64,000 nucleotides of DNA, from contig NZ_AP019777.1 in assembly GCF_019669905.1 (NCBI RefSeq), forward strand, positions 806,001 to 870,000. Direction: 5' to 3'. Of the stretch, positions 337 to 20,437 are shown one piece after another (within the stretch, counting starts at the first letter, position 1; every line of letters starts with the position of its first letter). The notes below the pieces were generated by a model, which worked only from the letters and a program-made list of their open reading frames with translations, searched no databases and was not told the origin of the DNA. Source of the stretch: Methylomonas koyamae. GTDB taxonomy: Bacteria > Pseudomonadota > Gammaproteobacteria > Methylococcales > Methylomonadaceae. Both the position numbers and the translations under genes were made by a program.

Positions 337-1809
337 ATGGGTGCTCTCTTGGATAAACGCCGCGCGGGCGTTTTGCTACACATTACATCCTTGCCGGGGC
401 GCGGAGAGTGTGGCGATTTGGGAAGGGAAGCGTTTCATTTTGTCAATTTCTTGCACGACACCGGGGTGACGGTTTGGCAGACCTTGCCGCTCGGCATGCC
501 GCACGGCGACGGCTCGCCTTACCAGTGTTTGTCGGCCCATGCCGGCAATCCGGCATTGATCAATCTGGAATGGCTGACTGAGAAGGGGTGGCTGCAGGCT
601 ACCGACCGTTGCGGCGATTGCCATACCAATGCCGAATTTACCAAGAGTTGTCTGGTAACAAAGGCGTTCTACGGCTTCCAGAATCTGGCCGATGCCGAGC
701 AGCAGCTGGATTTTCAGCGGTTTTGCCGGGAAAAGGCCGGCTGGCTCGACGATTTCGCGCTGTTTATTGCATTGCGTAACGTATTCGGCCACAAATGCTG
801 GAACGAATGGCCGGAAGCATTGCGGCAACGCGAACCGAAAGCGTTGAGCGAATCCCGGCAATTATTGAAAGCGGTAATCGATTCGATCAAATTCGAACAA
901 TACGTGTTCTTCAAGCAATGGCATGAATTGAAGGATTATGCCGCCCGCCACGGCGTGCTGATGTTCGGCGACATTCCGATTTTCGTTTCCTACGACAGTG
1001 CCGACGTTTGGGCCAACCGGGACGTGTTCAAGCTGAACGCGGCCGGCGAGATGGAAGTGGTGGCCGGCGTGCCGCCGGATTATTTTTCCGAGTTCGGCCA
1101 GCGCTGGGGTAATCCGCATTACGACTGGGAGTATTTGCGGAAAACCGGTTTCAAGTGGTGGCTGGAGCGGATCGAATCGCAATACGAGATGTTCGATGTG
1201 CTCAGAATCGACCATTTCCGCGGACTCGAGGCGGCATGGGAAATTCCGGCTAACGAAGATACCGCGATCAATGGCCGCTGGGTCGTGGCGCCCGGGGCCG
1301 AGTTATTGGCCGAAATTCAACGCCATTTCGGCTCGCTATCGTTGGTTGCGGAAGATCTGGGCATCATCACTGCGGAAGTCGAAGCCTTGCGCGACGATTT
1401 CAGTTTGCCCGGCATGAAGATTTTGCAATTTGCCTTCGGCGACGACAGCCGCAACCCCTATTTGCCGTGCAATTACCATAAGAATTGCGTGGTGTATACC
1501 GGTACCCACGACAACGATACTACGTTAGGCTGGTTCGACGGGCTCAACGACGGCGAAAAGCAGCGCATTTACGACTACCTGGGCTGGTCCAGCCTGCCGA
1601 TGCCGAGCGCGCTGATCCATGCCGCTATGGGATCGGTAGCCAATCTGGCGGTGATTCCGATGCAGGATATTTTGAAGCTAGGTTCGCCGGATCGGATGAA
1701 TACGCCGGGGACCACCGAGGGTAATTGGCGCTGGCGCTTCGATTGGTCGCAATTGTCCGACGATAAAGCCGGACATTTTGCCCACTTAGTCAGGTTGTTC
1801 GGCCGCTGA
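337..1809 (+). CDS. malQ: 4-alpha-glucanotransferase (amylomaltase)
   Basis: This 490-residue protein has the family's usual length. It transfers alpha-1,4-glucan segments between maltooligosaccharides in the cytoplasm and so recycles short chains from glycogen breakdown. GH77 landmarks are visible: the N-terminal RRAGVLLHITSLPG segment, FGDIPIFV, the nucleophile region RIDHFRG (Asp near residue 292), AEDLGI, GTHDNDTT and the C-terminal NTPGT. It follows the GH57 gene closely, and other glycogen genes lie at 11.6-20 kb. The stop codon lies in the loop of a perfect 9-bp hairpin, likely the terminator shared with the convergent xoxJ. The identification is secure. Confidence 0.96.
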   Translation: MGALLDKRRAGVLLHITSLPGRGECGDLGREAFHFVNFLHDTGVTVWQTLPLGMPHGDGSPYQCLSAHAGNPALINLEWLTEKGWLQATDRCGDCHTNAEFTKSCLVTKAFYGFQNLADAEQQLDFQRFCREKAGWLDDFALFIALRNVFGHKCWNEWPEALRQREPKALSESRQLLKAVIDSIKFEQYVFFKQWHELKDYAARHGVLMFGDIPIFVSYDSADVWANRDVFKLNAAGEMEVVAGVPPDYFSEFGQRWGNPHYDWEYLRKTGFKWWLERIESQYEMFDVLRIDHFRGLEAAWEIPANEDTAINGRWVVAPGAELLAEIQRHFGSLSLVAEDLGIITAEVEALRDDFSLPGMKILQFAFGDDSRNPYLPCNYHKNCVVYTGTHDNDTTLGWFDGLNDGEKQRIYDYLGWSSLPMPSALIHAAMGSVANLAVIPMQDILKLGSPDRMNTPGTTEGNWRWRFDWSQLSDDKAGHFAHLVRLFGR

Positions 1810-7313: not shown

Positions 7314-8486
7314 TTAGCTGCGCGCTTTCAATACCGCAACTGCGGGCAGTTCCTTGCCTTCCAGGAATTCCAGGAAGGCGCCGCCGCCGGTAGAGGTGTA
7401 AGACACTTTATCGGCGATGCCGTATTTGTCGATAGCCGCCAGCGTGTCGCCGCCGCCGGCAATCGAGAACGCCGGGCTTTCCGCAATCGCCAGCGACAGG
7501 GATTTGGTGCCTTCGCCGAACTGGTCGATTTCGAACACGCCGACCGGGCCGTTCCAGACGATGGTGCCGGCGGTTTTCAGGATTTCCGCGTATTGTTTGG
7601 CGGTTTCCGGTCCGATGTCCAGGATCAAGTCGTCGGCTTCGACGTCGGCGACGTTTTTCACGGTAGCCGCAGCGCTTTCGGAGAATTCTTTGGCACAGAC
7701 CACATCGACCGGCACCGGGATGTCGGCGCCGCGTTCTTTCGCGGAAGCGATCAAACGTTTGGCTTCCGGAATTAAATCCGCTTCATATAGCGATTTGCCG
7801 ACGTTGTAACCGGCGGCCGCAATGAAGGTGTTGGCGATGCCGCCGCCGACGATCAGTTGGTCGACTTTGGTCGACAAGGATTCCAGCACGGTCAATTTGG
7901 TCGAAACCTTGGAACCGCCGACGATCGCGACCAACGGGCGGGCCGGCGTTTCCAGGGCTTTGCCCAGTGCATCCAGTTCGGCCGCCAACAGCGGGCCGGC
8001 GCAAGCGACGGCAGCATGCTCGGCAACGGCATGGGTTGAGGCTTCGGCGCGGTGAGCGGTGCCGAAGGCGTCCATCACGAAGATGTCGCACAGCGCGGCC
8101 ATTTTTTGGCCGAGCTCGGCGCTGTTTTTCTTTTCGCCTTTATTGAAGCGCACGTTCTCGCACAGCACGACTTCGCCGCGCTTGACGTCGACGCCGTCCA
8201 GCCAATCTTTGACCAGACGCACCGGTTGGCCCAGCAATTGGGAAAAACGTTCGGCAACGGGTTGCAAGCTGGAGGCTTCGTCGTATTCGCCTTCGGTCGG
8301 ACGGCCCAGGTGCGACATCAAAATCACCGCGGCGCCGCCGGCCAAAGCCGCTTCGACGGTCGGAACGCTGGCCTGGATGCGCAAGTCGCTGGTGACTTTA
8401 CCGTCTTTGACCGGTACGTTTAAATCCTGGCGGATCAGGACGCGTTTGCCCGCCAGATCCAGATCGACCATTCGTTTGATAGACAT
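7314..8486 (-). CDS. pgk: Phosphoglycerate kinase
   Basis: A 390-residue cytoplasmic enzyme that interconverts 1,3-bisphosphoglycerate + ADP and 3-phosphoglycerate + ATP. Motifs in order: RQDLNVP near residue 20, [23 protein letters not shown] (about 117-130), [13 protein letters not shown] (about 191), NGPVGVFE and the nucleotide-binding GGGDT near the C-terminus. The length is normal for the bacterial enzyme. It stands alone here, without gapA or fba. The start at 8486 is preceded by AGGAGAAC. eno, the next glycolytic step but one, is at 57 kb. Confidence 0.97.
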
Positions 8487-11580: not shown

Positions 11581-13758
11581 TCAGACCGCGCTGTCGGCGA
11601 GTTTGAGGCCGGTGAATTTGCTGAAAAAATGCGCGGAAAGTTTGGACAGGCTATCGCCGCCGGCCAGTTCCTGTTTCGCGTTCTCGAATACCACCACCGA
11701 ATGCGGTTCGACCGCGTAACGGTTTTCCGCCACCGGTTTCTGCTCGGCCGGATCGATAATGTCCTGCCCCGGTTTCTGCGCGGTATCGACCGCCAAGCGC
11801 CAGACCCGTTCCGGGATTGGCGGCAATGCCATCGCGTGGCGTTGGTCCGACATGTTCAGAATCACGTGCAGATCGGCCTCTTCCTTGGCCAGCGCAGTCA
11901 ACGTGAAAGCCAGTATCCGCGTCTCCGGATCGTCCCAGCGCGGCGGCTGCTCGACTTGCAAGCCATGCCAGACGATATCCGGCATGTTGCGTTCCTCCAA
12001 GATTTCTCCGGTCAAAAATCGCCGCCGCATCAACGACGTGTGGCGTTTGCGCAAACGGATCATCTGCTGCACGAAGTGCAGCACGTCGGCGTTTTCCTTG
12101 GCTTTTTCCCAATTCAACCAGCTTAGCTCGTTGTCCTGGCAATAACAGTTGTTGTTGCCTTGTTGGGTGTGCAGGATTTCGTCGCCGGCCAGTAACATCG
12201 GCACGCCGTGGCTCAGCAGCAGTATGGCAAAGGCGTTTTTGACGCGTTTGCGGCGCAAGGCCTGGATGGCCGGGTCCCGGGTTGGGCCTTCCATTCCGCA
12301 GTTGCTGCTGAGATTGTTGTTACAGCCGTCGCGATTGTTTTCGCCGTTGGCGGCATTATGCTTTTCGTTGTAGCTGAACAGGTCGTTCAGCGTAAAGCCG
12401 TCGTGGCAGGTGACGAAGTTAATACCGCTGATCGGCAACCGGTGCTGGTGTTGGTACAAGTCGCTACTGCCGCAGATGCGGGTGGCGACCTCGCTGATGA
12501 TGCCGGAGTCGCCGCGCACGAAGCGGCGGATCACGTCGCGGTAGCGGCCGTTCCATTCGCCCCAGCGGTAGCCGGGGAAATTGCCGACCTGGTACAGGCC
12601 GGAGGCGTCCCAGGCTTCGGCGATCAATTTGGTTCTGGCCAATTGCTCCGATAACTCGATACCCCAGACCAGCGGCGGGTCCTGCAACACGCTGCCGTCT
12701 TCGCCGCGGGCCAGCGCGCTGGCCAGATCGAAACGAAACCCGTCGACGTGCATTTCCCTGACCCAATATTCCAGGCAACTGATAATGAAGTTGCTGACCA
12801 GCGGATGGTTGGCGTTGACGGTGTTGCCGCAGCCAGTGTAGTCGTGAAAGATGCGCTTGTCGTGTTTGTCGGTCAGGTAGAAGCTGTTGCCGGTAATGCC
12901 CTTGAAATTGATGACCGGGCCGTCGGCGCCGGCTTCGGAGGTGTGGTTGAACACGACGTCCATGATCACGCCGATGCCGGCCTTATGCAGCGCTTTGACC
13001 AGGTCGCGGAATTCGCGGAGATGGGTACCTTGTTCCGGCGTCACGCAATAACCCGGATGCGGGCTGAAAAAACTGTGGGTGCTGTAACCCCAGTAGTTTT
13101 TCAGGCCCAGATCGGAGGTGTGCGGCGGTACGTCCTGTTCGTCGAACGCCATGACCGGCAGTAACTCGACGTGGGTGATGCCCAGCTTGGACAAGTAAGG
13201 GACTTTTTCGATCAGGCCGGCAAAGGTGCCGGGATGTTTGACCTTGGCCGACGGATGGCGGGTAAAGCCGCCGACGTGCAATTCGTAAATGATGGCTTTT
13301 TCGCTGCGGATCGCCAGCGGCGTATCGCCTTCCCAGTCGTAGCGGTCGTCGACTACCACCGCACGCATCGCATGGGTGCTGTTGTCGCCGGGCAGGCAGG
13401 CGGCGGCGCGTTGCCAGAGCTTGTCGCTGACCGCCCGCGCCCACGGGTCCAGCAGCAGTTTGTCCTTGTCGAAGCGCAAACCGGTTTCGCGGGTATTGCT
13501 CGGGCCGTCGATGCGCCAGGCGTACCAAGTGCCGGTCGGCAAGCCCTCGACGAATACGTGCCAGGAAAAAAAAGTGTGGTGCTTGTCTTTGCGCAGGGCA
13601 ATGACTTGAAACGGTTCCGGACTCTCGTTGCTGGAGAACAACAGTAATTCGACGTGAGTGGCATGCCGGCTAGAGATGGAAAAATTCACGCCGTTTTCGC
13701 TGGCTTTGGCGCCATGCGGATAGGGACTCCCTGACTTTAAACTGTATGGTTTGCGCAT
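11581..13758 (-). CDS. glgX: Glycogen debranching enzyme
   Basis: A 725-residue cytoplasmic GH13 enzyme that cuts alpha-1,6 branches of glycogen limit dextrin. In order: an N-terminal CBM48-type domain (SPYPHGAKASENGVNFSI), IYELHVGGFTRHPS, DVVFNHTSEAG, the nucleophile segment DGFRFDLAS, the acid/base region LIAEAWDASG and CHDGFTLND. The length matches GlgX/TreX (about 650-750). It faces away from the DUF4912/GH57 branching cluster across a 181-base divergent gap and so likely belongs to the same glycogen locus. Confidence 0.94.
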   Translation of the reverse strand: MRKPYSLKSGSPYPHGAKASENGVNFSISSRHATHVELLLFSSNESPEPFQVIALRKDKHHTFFSWHVFVEGLPTGTWYAWRIDGPSNTRETGLRFDKDKLLLDPWARAVSDKLWQRAAACLPGDNSTHAMRAVVVDDRYDWEGDTPLAIRSEKAIIYELHVGGFTRHPSAKVKHPGTFAGLIEKVPYLSKLGITHVELLPVMAFDEQDVPPHTSDLGLKNYWGYSTHSFFSPHPGYCVTPEQGTHLREFRDLVKALHKAGIGVIMDVVFNHTSEAGADGPVINFKGITGNSFYLTDKHDKRIFHDYTGCGNTVNANHPLVSNFIISCLEYWVREMHVDGFRFDLASALARGEDGSVLQDPPLVWGIELSEQLARTKLIAEAWDASGLYQVGNFPGYRWGEWNGRYRDVIRRFVRGDSGIISEVATRICGSSDLYQHQHRLPISGINFVTCHDGFTLNDLFSYNEKHNAANGENNRDGCNNNLSSNCGMEGPTRDPAIQALRRKRVKNAFAILLLSHGVPMLLAGDEILHTQQGNNNCYCQDNELSWLNWEKAKENADVLHFVQQMIRLRKRHTSLMRRRFLTGEILEERNMPDIVWHGLQVEQPPRWDDPETRILAFTLTALAKEEADLHVILNMSDQRHAMALPPIPERVWRLAVDTAQKPGQDIIDPAEQKPVAENRYAVEPHSVVVFENAKQELAGGDSLSKLSAHFFSKFTGLKLADSAV

Positions 13759-13939: not shown

Positions 13940-14650
13940 ATGGCTTCTTCCCGGTCAACTTCTGAGTCTCGCCTGCAGCTTTCTGCCGAGGAGATGCGGG
14001 ATATCAGCCTGGAGATCAGCCGCGGTTTCGCCCCGCGCCGGTTCAGGGCCGGCGGCAGAGCGGCCACCTCCGGATTTTCGCCGCAGGAGTTGTTCAACAT
14101 CAGCCAGCAAATCAGCCGAGAATTCGCGCCGCGGGCCGATGCGCGGGCGCCGGGTGCACCCAGTCTGGTGCTGTTGCCGGTCGACCCGCGCCGCTTGCAC
14201 GCCTATTGGCAATTGCCCGAACCGCCGCGGTTGGTGCCGGCCGATGAGCCCACCGAATCGCCCGCGGCGGCCGAGCCGGGCTTGACCCTGCGGATTTACC
14301 GGCAAGCGGAAGCCGCCGACAGCGGAAAGGATCAGGCCGAAACCCGGCCGGCGTGGTTCGACCTGCCGGTCAGCGGCCAGAGCAGCCAGCAGCGAATCGC
14401 GTTACCCGAGCAACTGGCGACTGCCGCCGGTTATTACCAGGCGGCCATCGGCCATCTGGACCAGTATAAGGAGTTTACCGCTTTGGCTTATTCCAATCCG
14501 GCCGCCGTGGCCGAAGTTGCTGACGCGGCCGGCGAGTGGCTACCGCCTGCCATCGCCCAATTTGTGATGCCGGCCGGGGCCGGTTCCTTGCCTTCCCTGG
14601 CCGGTTCGTCCGCCGGTTCGGCTGTTTTGGCCTGCTCCGAGCATGAATAA
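13940..14650 (+). CDS. DUF4912-domain protein with a duplicated N-terminal motif
   Basis: A 236-residue protein. The core VLLPVDPRRLHAYWQL (from about residue 77) is the DUF4912 signature, a beta-sandwich domain often encoded beside GH57 branching enzymes. Before it, a 21-residue motif occurs twice: residues 14-34 (LSAEEM..ISLEISRGFAPR) and 46-66 (FSPQEL..ISQQISREFAPR). The last 8 bases overlap the GH57 start, so the two are co-translated. I infer a carbohydrate- or enzyme-binding accessory role in glycogen synthesis. The repeated motif may be a docking segment. Confidence 0.83.
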   Translation: MASSRSTSESRLQLSAEEMRDISLEISRGFAPRRFRAGGRAATSGFSPQELFNISQQISREFAPRADARAPGAPSLVLLPVDPRRLHAYWQLPEPPRLVPADEPTESPAAAEPGLTLRIYRQAEAADSGKDQAETRPAWFDLPVSGQSSQQRIALPEQLATAAGYYQAAIGHLDQYKEFTALAYSNPAAVAEVADAAGEWLPPAIAQFVMPAGAGSLPSLAGSSAGSAVLACSEHE

Positions 14651-16229
14651 CGGCTATCTTGCCATCGTTTTGCACGCGCACCTGCCGTACGTGCACCATC
14701 CCGAGCACGACAGTTTTTTCGAAGAAAACTGGCTGTTCGAGGCGATCAGCGAATGTTATCTGCCGCTATTGGCCATGTTGGAGCGTCTGCGCTACGACCG
14801 GGTGGCGTACCGGCTAACCTTGTCGCTATCGCCGACGTTGATGGCGATGTTGCGCAATCCGTTGCTGCAAAACCGGTTTTTGCGCTATATGCGCGGCCGG
14901 GTGGAACTGGCCGAGCGCGAGGTCGAACGGACCCGGCGCTTGCCGCAGTTCCACGCCCTGGCGCAGCATTATCTGCAATTGTTTCAAGACAACTTGCACG
15001 ACTACCAGCAACGCTACCAGTGCGATCTGCTCGCGGCGTTTCAGCGCCACCATAGCGGCGGCCGGCTGGAATTGATCACCACGGCGGCGACCCACGGTTA
15101 CTTGCCGCTGCTGAACGTCAACCCCGCCTCCGTGCGCAATCAGATCGGCGTCGGCGTCGACAGCTTTCGGGCCCAATTCGGTTTTGCGCCGCACGGTTTC
15201 TGGCTGCCGGAATGCGGCTACTATCCGGGGCTGGAGCAGACGTTGAAGGCGGAGGGGATCGATTATTTCTTTCTGGAAAGCCACGCGCTGCTCAACGCCG
15301 ACCGTCGGCCGCAATTCGGCGTATACGCGCCGGTCGATTGCGGCGGAATTGCCGCCTTCGGCCGCGATCCGGCCGCGTCGCATCAAGTTTGGAGTGCCGA
15401 ATCCGGCTACCCCGGCGACGGCGATTACCGCGAATATTACCGGGATATCGGTTTCGATTTGCCGCTGGAATACATCGCGCCCTACATCCTCGACGGCGAG
15501 ACCCGGATCAACACCGGCATCAAATATTACCGGATTACCGGCGGCAAGCAGCCCAAACAGGTGTATCAGCCGGAATTGGCCAAGTTGAAATTGCGCCAGC
15601 ACGCCGCGGATTTCATCGCCAGCCGCCAACGGCAGATCGACGCCTTGGCCGCGGAAATGCGGCAGCCGCCTATCGTGGTGGCGCCTTACGATGCCGAGCT
15701 GTTCGGCCATTGGTGGTTCGAAGGGCCGTTGTGGCTGGAGCAAGTGCTGCGTTTGGCGGCCGGCGCCGACAACGGCGTGCAAACCGTCAGTTGCGGCGAT
15801 TACCTGCAATTGCCGTTGCCGCGCCAGCCTGCGCTGCCGGCTGCATCCAGTTGGGGCGAGCACGGCTATTCCGAATTTTGGTTGAACGAAAGCAACGACT
15901 GGATTTATCCGCTGTTGCATAAGGCCGCCGCCGAAATGGAAAAACTGGCGAGCGATTTGCGCGGCTTCCAGGTCAGCGACTTGCAGCGGCGGGCGCTGAA
16001 CCAAGCGGCGCGTTCGTTGCTGCTGGCCCAGGCTTCGGATTGGCCGTTTATCATGAAGGCCGGCACCACGATCGATTATGCGCGCAAACGCATCACCGAC
16101 CATTTGGCGCGCTTCAATTATTTGCACGATGCGATCCGTAAGAACCGGATCGACGAGCGCTATTTGACAGCGCTGGAAATCATGGACGATATTTTTCCGG
16201 ACATCGATTTTCGCGCCTATGCCGCCTAG
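14643..16229 (+). CDS. GH57 1,4-alpha-glucan branching-type enzyme (DUF1957 family)
   Basis: A 528-residue cytoplasmic protein. GH57 landmarks: HAHLPYVHHPEH at residues 11-22, GFWLPECGYYPG with the likely nucleophile E190, and APYDAELFGHWWFEGP with the likely acid/base D350. The C-terminal helical region (WPFIMKAGTTIDYA, YLHDAI) matches GH57 branching enzymes of about 520-530 residues. It would create alpha-1,6 branches in glycogen. It is coupled to the DUF4912 gene (8-base overlap) and followed after 65 bases by the CBM21 protein. Branching rather than amylase activity is inferred from length and architecture. Confidence 0.88.
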   Translation: MNNGYLAIVLHAHLPYVHHPEHDSFFEENWLFEAISECYLPLLAMLERLRYDRVAYRLTLSLSPTLMAMLRNPLLQNRFLRYMRGRVELAEREVERTRRLPQFHALAQHYLQLFQDNLHDYQQRYQCDLLAAFQRHHSGGRLELITTAATHGYLPLLNVNPASVRNQIGVGVDSFRAQFGFAPHGFWLPECGYYPGLEQTLKAEGIDYFFLESHALLNADRRPQFGVYAPVDCGGIAAFGRDPAASHQVWSAESGYPGDGDYREYYRDIGFDLPLEYIAPYILDGETRINTGIKYYRITGGKQPKQVYQPELAKLKLRQHAADFIASRQRQIDALAAEMRQPPIVVAPYDAELFGHWWFEGPLWLEQVLRLAAGADNGVQTVSCGDYLQLPLPRQPALPAASSWGEHGYSEFWLNESNDWIYPLLHKAAAEMEKLASDLRGFQVSDLQRRALNQAARSLLLAQASDWPFIMKAGTTIDYARKRITDHLARFNYLHDAIRKNRIDERYLTALEIMDDIFPDIDFRAYAA

Positions 16230-16294
16230 GCGGCCGGCCGCAAGGCCAAACCGGCGCCGGCTATCGCCGCGCCGGCCAACTCTCGGGAGGGACC

Positions 16295-17794
16295 ATGGAT
16301 AACATCCAGTTACTGTATGTCGCCAATACCGTTAGCGGTAAGGCTGCTGCCAGCACGCAGACTTTGCAGTTCTTGATCCGGGTGGCCAATCTCGGTTACG
16401 GCAAGACCGTAGAGGTGCATTGGGCCGGCGAAGACGGCGTCTGGCGCCGGGTGTTGGCCGATTATTGCGCCAGCGCCGGCGACGGCAGCGAGTATTGGCG
16501 GGCCGAGGTGGCGTTTCCGCGCCAGGCCAGGGCCGAATTGCCCGGCGACATCCATTTCGTTGCTCGGCTGGAACATGAAGGCTGCGAGTATTGGGATAAC
16601 AACGACGGTTGCCTAGACTACTTCTGCGCGGCCGGCAGCGGCGGCCGGATGACCGGAGTCATGCCGGTAGTGCCATTGAATCCGATGCAAGGCTTGGGTC
16701 CGGCGCAGCGTAACGTTCCGCTCAAATTCGCGGTCAATGCCGCACTGGCGGCGGAGAAAGTGACTGTGCATTGGACGCTGGACGATTGGCGCCACGTGCA
16801 CAAGACCAGCTGCCGGCTGCAATCCGGGAAGCGCTCCGCGACCCATGGCGGTTACGCCGGGCTGCATCCGGTGCAGCTTTGGAGCGCCAATCTGAAAGTC
16901 GAAGGTGCGTTCCGCCTGCAATACAGCATCTGCTGCGAGAGCGGGGAGCAAACCCTCTGGGATAACAATGCCGGCCGCAACTATCGGCTGAGCCGGGCGC
17001 CGCTGAAAGTGCTGATCCTGAATCTGCATTGCTACCAGGAAGACGACCAAGACCGCAAATTCTGGCAAATCGCCAAAGCCGTCGACGAACTCCAAGCCGA
17101 TGTGGTCTGTTTGCAGGAAGTGGCGGAACATTGGAACGACGGCCGCGGCGATTGGGCCTCCAATTCCGCCAATATCATCAACCGTCGCCTGAAAAAGCCG
17201 TTCCACCTGTACAGCGATTGGTCCCACCTGGGCTTCGATAAGTACCGGGAAGGGGTGGCGATTTTGAGCCGTTATCCGATCGAACGCCAGGAAGCCCGCT
17301 ACGTCTCCGACAGCAGCGATGCCTACAGTATCCATTCCCGCAAAGTGGTCGCCGCCTGCATCGATGTCCCTTGCATCGGCCCGATCGACGTATTTTCGGC
17401 GCATTTGAGCTGGTGGGACGACGGTTTCCCCGAACAATTCCAACGTTTGTCGGATTGGGCCGACAGCCGGCGCGGCGGCGAGGTTGCGGCGACTTTATTG
17501 TGCGGGGATTTCAATATCGCCGCCGGTTCGCTAGGCTATCGCCTGGTCGTCGATGGTCACCGCTACGAAGACCAGTATCTGGCGGCCAATGCCCCGGCCT
17601 TGTTTCAACAGATTTTCCGGGTCGACGATGCCCATTGGCGCGATCAGTTGGCGGACGACTACCGGATCGATTACGTGTTTATGAACAAAGACAGCGGATT
17701 GCGGGCGACCTCGGCGCGGGTATTATTCACCGAGCAGGATTACGGCCGGGTGTCCGACCATTGCGGCTATCTGCTGGAGTTCGAGCCGCTGTGA
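16295..17794 (+). CDS. Two CBM21 glycan-binding modules fused to an endonuclease/exonuclease/phosphatase domain
   Basis: A 499-residue protein without a signal peptide. Two CBM21-like modules are visible, about residues 20-112 and 140-232; each ends in the family hallmark WDNN.G..Y (W100-D101-N102-N103 and W222-D223-N224-N225). From about 236 to 499 lies an EEP-fold hydrolase: ILNLHCYQ, VVCLQEV (E275), SAHLSWW (H370), GDFN (404-407), DYVF and the terminal SDH (487-489). All expected metal and catalytic residues of that superfamily seem present. The glycan-binding part points to glycogen as an anchor; the hydrolase would act on a phosphoester. Strong GGGAGG precedes the start. It sits between the branching enzyme and the PLD-fold gene. 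Confidence 0.85.
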   Translation: MDNIQLLYVANTVSGKAAASTQTLQFLIRVANLGYGKTVEVHWAGEDGVWRRVLADYCASAGDGSEYWRAEVAFPRQARAELPGDIHFVARLEHEGCEYWDNNDGCLDYFCAAGSGGRMTGVMPVVPLNPMQGLGPAQRNVPLKFAVNAALAAEKVTVHWTLDDWRHVHKTSCRLQSGKRSATHGGYAGLHPVQLWSANLKVEGAFRLQYSICCESGEQTLWDNNAGRNYRLSRAPLKVLILNLHCYQEDDQDRKFWQIAKAVDELQADVVCLQEVAEHWNDGRGDWASNSANIINRRLKKPFHLYSDWSHLGFDKYREGVAILSRYPIERQEARYVSDSSDAYSIHSRKVVAACIDVPCIGPIDVFSAHLSWWDDGFPEQFQRLSDWADSRRGGEVAATLLCGDFNIAAGSLGYRLVVDGHRYEDQYLAANAPALFQQIFRVDDAHWRDQLADDYRIDYVFMNKDSGLRATSARVLFTEQDYGRVSDHCGYLLEFEPL

Positions 17795-17846
17795 CCGGCT
17801 CGAAGGTTAACCATGGATTTCAACGTGTGCGATTAGGCGAGCGAAC

Positions 17847-19439
17847 ATGCAAGTAGCAGAACATTACGCCAGGCCGGTATTCGGCAAATTGGGCGGCTGT
17901 TTCCAACGCAGCAACGATTTCAGGGAGAGTTTCGACATCCGCTGGGGCAAGATCGATTTCGAATTGCACCACGGCGTCGCGGCCAATTTGAAGGTGGTAC
18001 TAAAGGTATTCCGCGATTCGATCTGCGAAACCTACATCGTCGATACCGACGCCTACGATGTCGAATGGGATCGGCACAAACGTTCGACCCGGGATTTCTA
18101 CGTTCTGCCGTATTCGGCCCAGTTCGGCCGTATCCATTGCATCAAGTTCGGGTTTATCGTCCATATCGGCGAGCATTCGATTGCCTCGCGCCACGAATAC
18201 ATTTTCATGGATGCGCCGCAATTGCAGGATAACCAGCCGACGCAACGCCAAATTAGCGAGCAATGGGCCACGCCCAACCATTACCGTACCCACGAGATCG
18301 ATGCCGGCAAATTGCAGGCCGACGTGGATTGGTATAACCGCCATTTCGAGTCGCTGCATCTGACGCCGAAATTCACCAAGGGCCAGCAGCACCATCCTTA
18401 CCACCCGAAGCGCTTCATCCACGACCATATCGACAAAACTATCGCCGCCAAGCGGACGCAACCCGACCGGCTGTGTACGATCAAGGTCAGCGTCGATTGC
18501 ATCGACGACAACGACTTTATCAACCATTTGATCCATGCCAGCCACCAGGGCGTGCTGGTGCAATGCATCGTCGATTGGCGCAAGATGACGCTGACCAACA
18601 GCCAGAACTACGCCCGGCTGAAACGCTCCGGCATCGAGTTGGTCGGCGTGTTTTGCACGCCGAAGCACCATTTGATCGAAGTCGAGCCGGATATGCACAC
18701 CAAATTCGTCATCTTCAACGACGAGGACGCTATCATCGGTTCGTTCAACATTACTTTCGACCGCTGGTGGGCCAACTGGGAGTCGGGCATGAGCTTTCAT
18801 TCCCAGGGCGTGTGCCGGCTGCTGGACAACATCTTCCAAAGCCAGCGCGGCGGCGTGATCCAGAAATACGGCATCGACCCGCTCAGCCCGTTCAATTTGC
18901 TGTACACCTTCGGTCGCCAGACCATGGCCAACGGCAAGCTGTACCGGCCGCACCATGCAATTTTGGCCGAGATCCACCGCGCCCGCCGTTCGTTGAAGCT
19001 TTGCCTGTTTTTGATCGGCGATCTGCTCGGCGACCATAACGACAGCGTCGTTACCGCCTTGATCCAGGCCCGCGACCGCGGCGTGGACGTACAGTTGTTG
19101 TTCAACGGCCATTTGGCGCGGCAGGGCAAGATCGGCGTCGAACGGCCGATGTCCGAAGAACTGGCGCGGCCGTTGCTGCCTGCCATTCAACGCTTGAAAG
19201 ACGCCGGCATTCGCGTCGGCCTGGTCTACGGCCAGGACGACTTGCCGGTGCCGTATTCGCCGATCCATTGCAAATATTGCGTGATCGACGAATACATCGT
19301 CATCGAAGGCAGTTTCAACTGGTACAACACCTCGGTGTTTTCCCACGACTTGGTCGTCGTCGCCGCCAACCGCGACGTGGCCCGGCCGTATCTGTACGAA
19401 TTCGAGCAGATACAGCGTTTGTTCAGAGTGTTTTATTAA
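17847..19439 (+). CDS. Phospholipase-D-fold protein with two HKD motifs
   Basis: A 530-residue protein with no signal peptide. Residues 1-125 form an N-terminal domain rich in beta-type pattern (FDIRWGKIDFELHHG...) that I do not recognise. After it come two PLD half-sites: HTKFVIFNDED with H284 and K286, and HCKYCVIDEY with H474 and K476, each followed by GSFN. Both catalytic halves look intact, so it should be an active phosphodiesterase, transphosphatidylase or nuclease. It lies 52 bases after the CBM21-EEP gene on the same strand and 41 bases before the formylglycine-type gene. Substrate unknown; context suggests a glycogen-linked phosphoester or membrane lipid. Confidence 0.82.
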   Translation: MQVAEHYARPVFGKLGGCFQRSNDFRESFDIRWGKIDFELHHGVAANLKVVLKVFRDSICETYIVDTDAYDVEWDRHKRSTRDFYVLPYSAQFGRIHCIKFGFIVHIGEHSIASRHEYIFMDAPQLQDNQPTQRQISEQWATPNHYRTHEIDAGKLQADVDWYNRHFESLHLTPKFTKGQQHHPYHPKRFIHDHIDKTIAAKRTQPDRLCTIKVSVDCIDDNDFINHLIHASHQGVLVQCIVDWRKMTLTNSQNYARLKRSGIELVGVFCTPKHHLIEVEPDMHTKFVIFNDEDAIIGSFNITFDRWWANWESGMSFHSQGVCRLLDNIFQSQRGGVIQKYGIDPLSPFNLLYTFGRQTMANGKLYRPHHAILAEIHRARRSLKLCLFLIGDLLGDHNDSVVTALIQARDRGVDVQLLFNGHLARQGKIGVERPMSEELARPLLPAIQRLKDAGIRVGLVYGQDDLPVPYSPIHCKYCVIDEYIVIEGSFNWYNTSVFSHDLVVVAANRDVARPYLYEFEQIQRLFRVFY

Positions 19440-19480
19440 CCGTATCGGTTACAGGATATTTTTATTTTGGAGTATCGAGC

Positions 19481-20437
19481 ATGAATTTGCGCCAGGGCTG
19501 GTTGCTGCTTTTTTCTGTGCTGTTTATCAATTCCGGACATAGCGAAACGTTGCCCGGCAAAACGGGGCAGGCGGCTTCGTCGAAATCGAAACCCGCGCCG
19601 GTGCGAAAGGCGCGAAACCGGGCGGCAAAGCATTTTCGCGATTGTGCCGATTGTCCGGAAATGGTGGCAATTCCCGGCGGCGTGTATCTGATGGGTTCGC
19701 CGGTGACCGATCAGGAAGGGCAGGATTATGAAAAGCCGCGCCACGAGGTCAAAGTTAGCGGTTTTGCCATCGGTAAATACGAAATCAGCAAATCGCAGTT
19801 TGCCGCGTTTGTCGAGGCGGCCAACTACAATCCGGGTAACGAATGTTGGACGATGGAAGCCGGCAAGGGCGAAATGCGCAGCAACCGGAATTGGTCGGCC
19901 CCTGGCTACCCGCAAGATAGCGATCATCCGGCCACTTGCGTCAGCGTCGACGACGCCGAGGCTTATATCAAATGGCTGAATCAAAAAACCGGCAAACACT
20001 ATCGCCTGCCTACCGAGGCGGAGTGGGAATACGCCGCTCGGGGCGGTAGTGCTGCTGCCCGGTTTTGGGGCGATAACCCGGATGGCGCCTGCAAATATGC
20101 CAACGTTGCGGATCTAAGCCTGCAAAAAGCGGATTCGAAAGTCATCCCGCACAACTGCGAGGACGGGTACGTGTTTACCGCGCCGGTCGGCAGTTACTCG
20201 CCTAACGCGTTTGGGCTTTACGACATGTTGGGAAATGTCTGGGAATGGACCTGCAGTGCGGATAGCGGATACGGTTCCAGCGAAGAGGAAAAATGTACCG
20301 GCCTGTTATCGCGGCGCATCTACCGCGGCGGTTCGTGGATCAATACCGCGGACTATGTCCGTTCCGCCTCTCGCTACGGCTATATTCCGTCATTTCGGTT
20401 CAATAACGTGGGATTTCGCTTGGCGCGCGATAATTGA
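19481..20437 (+). CDS. Secreted formylglycine-generating-enzyme (SUMF1)-like protein
   Basis: A 318-residue protein, taking the ATG at 19481 that opens a signal peptide (NLRQGWLLLFSVLFINSG) rather than the longer open frame. The SUMF1/FGE-sulfatase fold is clear: MVAIPGGVYLMGS, a KYEISKSQFAAFVEA segment, YRLPTEAEWEYAARGG, GNVWEWT and RGGSWINTAD...GFRLAR at the end. Family members include true formylglycine oxidases, hydroxylases and enzymatically dead scaffolds; I cannot tell which. No sulfatase gene is nearby. It follows the PLD-fold gene by 41 bases and may be the last gene of that operon. Confidence 0.85.
   Translation: MNLRQGWLLLFSVLFINSGHSETLPGKTGQAASSKSKPAPVRKARNRAAKHFRDCADCPEMVAIPGGVYLMGSPVTDQEGQDYEKPRHEVKVSGFAIGKYEISKSQFAAFVEAANYNPGNECWTMEAGKGEMRSNRNWSAPGYPQDSDHPATCVSVDDAEAYIKWLNQKTGKHYRLPTEAEWEYAARGGSAAARFWGDNPDGACKYANVADLSLQKADSKVIPHNCEDGYVFTAPVGSYSPNAFGLYDMLGNVWEWTCSADSGYGSSEEEKCTGLLSRRIYRGGSWINTADYVRSASRYGYIPSFRFNNVGFRLARDN

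Follow-up and report, generated by a model that had tools for sequence, protein, structure and literature searches.

The window, a stretch of 64,000 nucleotides from Methylomonas koyamae (contig NZ_AP019777.1, forward-strand positions 806,001 to 870,000), carries on its + strand at 13940–19439 a run of four genes. They encode, in order, a DUF4912 protein, a GH57 branching-type enzyme, a protein in which two CBM21 modules are fused to an endonuclease/exonuclease/phosphatase (EEP) domain, and a PLD-fold protein. The last two are the subject of this analysis. The CBM21–EEP protein (499 aa; 16295–17794, +), a candidate glucan phosphatase, and its PLD-fold partner (530 aa; 17847–19439, +) were delineated from open reading frames, Pfam matches and structure models, and the open reading frame list agrees with the coordinates that a model-made first-pass annotation had assigned to both genes.

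The CBM21–EEP gene is separated from its neighbours by 65 bases on the GH57 side and 52 bases on the PLD side, and a ribosome-type site, GGGAGGG, precedes its ATG at 16295. Comparison with three relatives shows purifying selection on both genes, with dN/dS values of 0.067–0.131 for CBM21–EEP and 0.031–0.055 for the PLD gene. The latter is also the more conserved across the 19 loci of a genome scan (60–96% versus 46–93% identity). A promoter and terminator scan gave matches no commoner than in shuffled sequences.

CBM21 modules, EEP domain and its stand-alone relatives

The Pfam family CBM_21 scores 62 bits over the whole protein, in two stretches (cut-off 28.9). The second module (16754–16990, +) exceeds the cut-off by itself with 40.7 bits. 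The Pfam-matched part of the first (16349–16609, +) reaches 27 bits alone, under the cut-off, and the two modules match each other in an hhalign profile comparison with a probability of 96.9. In the predicted structure (mean pLDDT 89.3), both are entirely β-strand. The combined score, the match between the modules and the all-β model bear out the two modules proposed in the first-pass annotation, and both are present in all 32 aligned full-length relatives.

The α-glucan ligands of PTG at its sites I and II are given in section 6 of PMC9582199, and by comparison with that section we read N32, Y35 and K37 of module 1 as probable equivalents of PTG N177, F180 and K182. These site-II-type residues are well preserved among the relatives (K37 in 32/32, N32 in 26/32, Tyr or Phe at position 35 in 28/32). 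Module 2 has the site-I residues W165 (32/32), W222 (31/32), N224 (26/32) and N229 (27/32), which the alignment and the same section suggest correspond to PTG W193, W246, N248 and N253. It is without equivalents of the site-II Phe and Tyr196, and position 152 is mostly His, Ala or Asp. Judging from these conserved ligand residues, the two modules would anchor the protein on glycogen. A separate observation concerns the Accumulibacter-family genomes G531 and G644, each of which holds three open reading frames (263–339 aa) that match the CBM21 part alone (residues 2–231, 29–33% identity), without an EEP match. Two of the three are adjacent in each genome (G531, C2:1207838–1209444 and C1:32390–33001; G644, C44:167340–168973 and C28:669–1274).

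The EEP domain (17003–17788, +) belongs to a MapP-like clade, and Exo_endo_phos scores 68.2 bits in the protein. N243, E275, H370, D405, N407, D459, S487, D488 and H489 are invariant in 32 of 32 relatives; all of these except S487 form what we take to be the metal and catalytic residue set of EEP enzymes. The complete domain earlier recognized from E275, GDFN and SDH is thus upheld. The exonuclease III equivalog TIGR00633 scores 15.5, far under its cut-off of 99.05, and the domain appears to lie outside the nuclease type.

In a tree of 38 EEP rows, a single 25-row branch with support of 100/97 unites eight CBM21 forms, nine stand-alone paralogues, six plasmid rows and two chromosomal rows, and leaves 13 other EEPs outside. 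H311 and E319 are found in 25/25 rows of this branch and in 0/13 of the other EEPs. W373 was dropped as a further mark, being present in two outside rows and absent from the inside chromosomal rows L052 and L053. Alignment and tree exclude the proteins of L054, L064 and L069 (>420 aa), and the tree also excludes the Lactococcus lactis and Rhizobium proteins; the Niallia row carries the label 'pts' in the alignment, though no gene of a phosphotransferase system (PTS) was found adjoining. The stand-alone paralogue occurs in 18 of the 37 Methylococcales carriers described below. In nine loci (L112, at G000 C1:1709195–1710022, and L113–L120), it shares 35–38% identity, and its only recurring neighbour is a 179-aa-type open reading frame (5/9), for which the one copy scanned gave no Pfam match.

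These results bear on the possibility that both proteins of the pair are plain nucleases or phosphodiesterases acting on nucleic acid or lipid, with CBM21 serving storage or localization. Both folds do include nucleases, and TDP2 and PLD3 are among the fold neighbours. Against this stand the low exonuclease III score and the tree, in which the EEP domain branches with PTS-linked EEPs, apart from the 13 others; on these two grounds, we judge the nuclease explanation very unlikely.

A plasmid search returned 57 records with a stand-alone EEP relative, largely near copies within Enterococcus, Leclercia and Lactococcus. We inspected 10 stand-alone loci, comprising eight plasmid regions (five annotated; those of L. 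lactis, Niallia and Rhizobium read by tblastn) and two chromosomal regions from a phylum draw. A PTS IIBC permease adjoins the EEP gene in eight of them. On the Cetobacterium, Priestia, Leclercia, Enterococcus faecium and Lactococcus garvieae plasmids, the PTS IIBC gene is followed directly by the EEP gene, with α-glucosidase, β-phosphoglucomutase or GH65 genes alongside. The L. lactis region has the same gene set, and in the chromosomal relatives (G131, G230) EEP is flanked by phosphorylase/4-α-glucanotransferase and PTS IIBC. TIGR02003 is above cut-off in all six permeases scored (of eight), and the PTS-type EEPs measure 261–274 aa. Mokhtari et al. are said to have described MapP in 2013 as the maltose 6′-phosphate phosphatase of Enterococcus faecalis. 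The layout with an adjoining PTS IIBC gene is that of the MapP locus: according to PMC3737437, the gene for E. faecalis MapP, an EEP-family protein, is preceded by malT, which encodes the maltose PTS.

None of the 121 Methylococcales genomes has a PTS EIIC (PF02378) match that reaches the cut-off (in the control, 7 of 14 known genomes gave one), and imported maltose-6′-phosphate is therefore an unlikely substrate there. EIIC is present in 4 of 7 carriers reached through loci L013–L021, so the argument is restricted to Methylococcales. The same kinship invites a different explanation, namely, that the protein is a soluble-sugar phosphatase merely seated on glycogen, which would clear maltodextrin-6-phosphates or other sugar phosphates arising from side reactions close to the granule, the polymer being no substrate. 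MapP does act on a disaccharide phosphate, according to PMC3737437, and the catalytic residues together with H311 and E319 are common to CBM21–EEP and the MapP-locus proteins. However, the two CBM21 modules in the 32 aligned relatives favour a polymer, and import of maltose-6′-phosphate is unlikely in Methylococcales; we consider this explanation rather unlikely.

The PLD-fold partner and co-occurrence of the pair

PLDc_2 matches the partner protein with 118.8 bits in two stretches. Its model (mean pLDDT 82.6, moderate; the other four models have 60–73) comprises an N-terminal β-rich domain and two PLD repeats. The N-terminal domain (residues 8–122; 17868–18212, +) has no Pfam match and was rejected as a third CBM21 on a profile probability of <1 against the CBM21 modules. 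The first HKD-type motif, HxKxxxxN(x)6GSxN (18696–18749, +; H284-x-K286-x4-N291), has Asn in place of Asp in 28 of 30 relatives, Gly in the other two and Asp in none. The second, HxKxxxxD(x)6GSxN (19266–19319, +; H474-x-K476-x4-D481), is canonical in 30/30. Of the two intact HKD sites described in the first-pass annotation, only the second therefore stands. Fold searches, which barely probe residues 1–204 of the CBM21–EEP model and 1–154 of the PLD model, match the partner to PLD3/4, bacterial PLD and vaccinia F13 and, lower down, to PPK1.

The PLD gene lies 3′ of the CBM21–EEP gene on the same strand at 19/19 loci of the genome scan (one ends at a contig end). Full-length CBM21–EEP is carried by 37 of 121 Methylococcales genomes, and the PLD gene is present in all 37. 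The two genes are adjacent in 33 of these, split over two contig ends in one and apart in three (17 kb, 1.48 Mb and 1.59 Mb); one further genome, G098, has only part of the PLD gene, located where a contig begins. In a second family, sampled as 150 genomes centred on the known carrier G519, both genes occur in the same three. Among 398 genomes of the phylum draw, a full-length copy of either gene is found in the M. koyamae genome only; the pair is therefore rare and patchy. It should be noted that the Fisher p of 2e-30 for co-occurrence is overstated, since related genomes are not independent. Matches dropped from these counts were G005 and G022 (both weak, of 39 genomes) in the CBM21–EEP search of the order, G093 (weak) and G098 (of 39) in the corresponding PLD search and, in the second family, G531 and G644 (CBM21 part only) and G607 of six, with five weak matches of eight in its PLD search. 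For the two genes of the pair, the co-occurrence check suggested at the outset gives a strict result, both in the order and in the second family. The pair is a genuine unit, carried by methanotrophs and some other glycogen-storing bacteria.

PLD-fold proteins use phosphodiester substrates, and EEP enzymes act on monoesters or diesters. Together with the strict co-occurrence, this would suit serial action on a glycogen phosphodiester, the partner opening the diester and the EEP domain clearing the remaining C6 monoester. However, we know of no phosphodiester on bacterial glycogen, the first HKD motif is altered and the closest PLD folds include the nucleases PLD3/4 besides lipases, all of which make such a sequence of reactions decidedly improbable. 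The partner could alternatively be a writer, an enzyme that, like polyphosphate kinase, which has the same fold, passes phosphate (e.g., from polyphosphate) via a histidine onto glycogen, with CBM21–EEP as the eraser. Phosphotransfer by this protein is purely conjectural, its second HKD motif is that of a canonical PLD, and PLD and PLD3 folds outrank PPK1; we hold this role to be highly doubtful.

Glycogen genes around the pair

The gene upstream of CBM21–EEP (14643–16229, +) encodes a GH57 protein with a BE_C domain (116 and 120.8 bits, respectively), as expected for the branching-type enzyme originally proposed. It is overlapped by the gene of the DUF4912 protein (13940–14650, +), identified by a domain match. 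The divergent gene at 11581–13758 (−) encodes the glycogen debranching enzyme GlgX (TIGR02100, 699.7 bits, above cut-off), and MalQ, annotated as a 4-α-glucanotransferase, is encoded at the start of the window (337–1809, +). Immediately ahead of the window, on the same contig of the 5.1-Mb genome, are glgC, glgB and glgA.

GH57, GlgX or glgA/B/C/malQ lies within 9 kb of CBM21–EEP in 33 of 37 Methylococcales carriers (the window and 32 of the 36 loci fetched; some contigs stop short of this distance). Of the 26 fetched loci with a GH57 gene, 19 have DUF4912 next to it. When the two genes of the pair are split, CBM21–EEP stays beside GH57 and DUF4912 (3/3), and no other query gene was found near the separated PLD gene. 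The genome scan shows glycogen genes at 11 of 19 loci, four of which have glgA directly 5′ of CBM21–EEP. Within the order, GlgA is above cut-off in 36 of 37 carriers and in 60 of 84 genomes that lack the pair; elsewhere it is so in 9/9 carriers (45/46 carriers overall). The pair tracks glycogen makers, and placement in a glycogen locus is kept mainly by methanotrophs.

Several other neighbours were seen. A second, distinct GH57 protein (563 aa, without an NCBIfam name) is encoded next to glgC in M. koyamae and relatives (L009, 594–2285; L134, 8629–10320). Phosphoglycerate kinase is encoded near the pair in the window (7314–8486) and directly 3′ of it in L013 (8001–9374, with triosephosphate isomerase) and L018 (12773–14221). 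An FGE-sulfatase-type protein (19463–20437) lies between the pair and RadA in the window and has no match in the 19 scan loci. In L011 (14005–15435) and L012 (14150–15580), an RtcB RNA-ligase gene and two small open reading frames follow just past the pair on the opposite strand; L011 was scanned for this assignment, and L012 has a similar open reading frame.

A candidate glucan phosphatase and its known counterparts

We propose, as an evenly balanced call made from sequence, that the CBM21–EEP protein is a glucan-6-phosphatase tethered to glycogen and, as such, a functional counterpart of laforin in bacteria, built on an unrelated fold. The metal-dependent EEP domain would remove C6 phosphate monoesters from α-1,4-glucosyl units of glycogen or released dextrins and thereby unblock exo-acting breakdown enzymes and branching enzymes; it would work with the PLD-fold partner, whose reaction is unassigned. 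Removal of phosphate from C6 of α-1,4-linked glucose is the likely chemistry of the EEP domain, and C6 phosphate on α-1,4-linked glucose is the ester type of phosphoglucans. In plants, phosphate blocks exo-acting β-amylases until SEX4 or LSF2 takes it off, as stated in PMC4919380. For branching enzymes, one bacterial enzyme included, PMC13011383 reports that covalent phosphate reduces their affinity. The same need for phosphate removal would be in keeping with a locus that encodes branching and debranching enzymes. The analogue of glycogen-targeted phosphatases envisaged in the first-pass annotation is thus the best-supported reading, through the MapP-like clade, the absence of PTS EIIC above cut-off in the order and the strict pairing; the two intact HKD sites of that annotation are not retained.

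A number of observations weigh against a glucan phosphatase. Phosphate in bacterial glycogen is treated as an open question, perhaps with none present, in PMC13011383. The M. koyamae genome yielded no plant-type glucan dikinase: its two PPDK_N proteins are pyruvate phosphate dikinase and phosphoenolpyruvate synthase, which removes the dikinase as a candidate writer, and there is therefore no known writer of phosphate. The linkage to GH57 and other glycogen genes, which holds in Methylococcales, was not found at 8 of the 19 scan loci (L013–L015 and L017–L021; flanks uneven in length), which come from unplaced Pseudomonadota, Methylococcaceae, Accumulibacter, UASB270, Rhodocyclaceae and Verrucomicrobia, mostly outside Methylococcales. 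GlgA was not found over cut-off in one carrier, G072. Within the 25-row branch, the CBM21 forms are closest to the stand-alone paralogues (91/84), which have no assigned function, and the PTS-linked rows, plasmid as well as chromosomal, group separately (100/98) beside them, pointing to kinship rather than nesting; the tree program also warned of long branches meeting. Identity to the plasmid EEPs is about 25–30%, and in these comparisons same-locus-type proteins of E. faecium and L. garvieae stand for MapP, the E. faecalis sequence itself being absent. Finally, no PTS gene was found at the Niallia locus, and the Rhizobium locus has α-glucosidase-type genes in its place.

Beyond a tethered phosphatase, one may imagine a dedicated glycogen phosphate cycle, in which the PLD-fold protein writes or opens phosphate (di)esters and the CBM21-tethered MapP-type enzyme erases them. 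We regard such a cycle as improbable; if true, it would be an independent invention of the laforin/SEX4 logic on unrelated folds, in methanotrophs and Accumulibacter.

The first-pass annotation knew of no described system with this pairing, and our searches of an open-licence library, from which most subscription journals are missing, found no description of the protein. Named database entries call the protein a carbohydrate-binding protein, endonuclease/exonuclease/phosphatase or maltose 6′-phosphate phosphatase, many of them endonuclease or maltose 6′-phosphate phosphatase; both of these last names mislead if it is a glucan phosphatase. MapP is of the same EEP family. Its plasmid relatives from E. 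faecium, L. garvieae and L. lactis occupy the same locus type (PTS IIBC, GH65, β-phosphoglucomutase), and the first two share the branch, H311 and E319 with the window's EEP domain. However, PTS-type EEPs stand alone, whereas the protein described here has two fused CBM21 modules, a PLD-fold partner and a host order without PTS EIIC above cut-off. The mannosyl-6-phosphatase BT3783 (PDB 4C1R) also has the EEP fold and, by its entry title, a sugar-6-phosphate substrate, but identity is 18% over 227 aligned residues of the EEP part only, and several other EEPs are equally near. The closest solved CBM21 kin by sequence are PTG and GL (PPP1R3C and PPP1R3B), glycogen-targeting subunits of PP1 that share its WDNN-G-NY motif. 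These recruit a separate protein phosphatase, whereas the window protein has its own catalytic domain of another fold.

The glucan phosphatases described so far come from animals, plants and some protists. A 2009 survey (PMC2714694) states that a phosphatase and a carbohydrate-binding domain do not occur together in any bacterial protein, and it considers a bacterial glucan phosphatase unlikely. A bacterial fusion of CBM21 with a sugar-phosphatase-type EEP domain makes regulated phosphate on bacterial glycogen directly testable and gives a simple setting in which to study the glycogen phosphate biology that underlies Lafora disease. Some bacteria, like animals with laforin, may dephosphorylate their own glycogen. 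In laforin (CBM20 plus dual-specificity phosphatase) and SEX4 (dual-specificity phosphatase plus CBM), as in the window protein, an α-glucan-binding module is joined to a phosphatase, and the proposed substrate class is the same. The catalytic domain, however, is a cysteine phosphatase there and a metal-type EEP domain here; the window protein is not a homologue of laforin or SEX4 and would represent a new solution.

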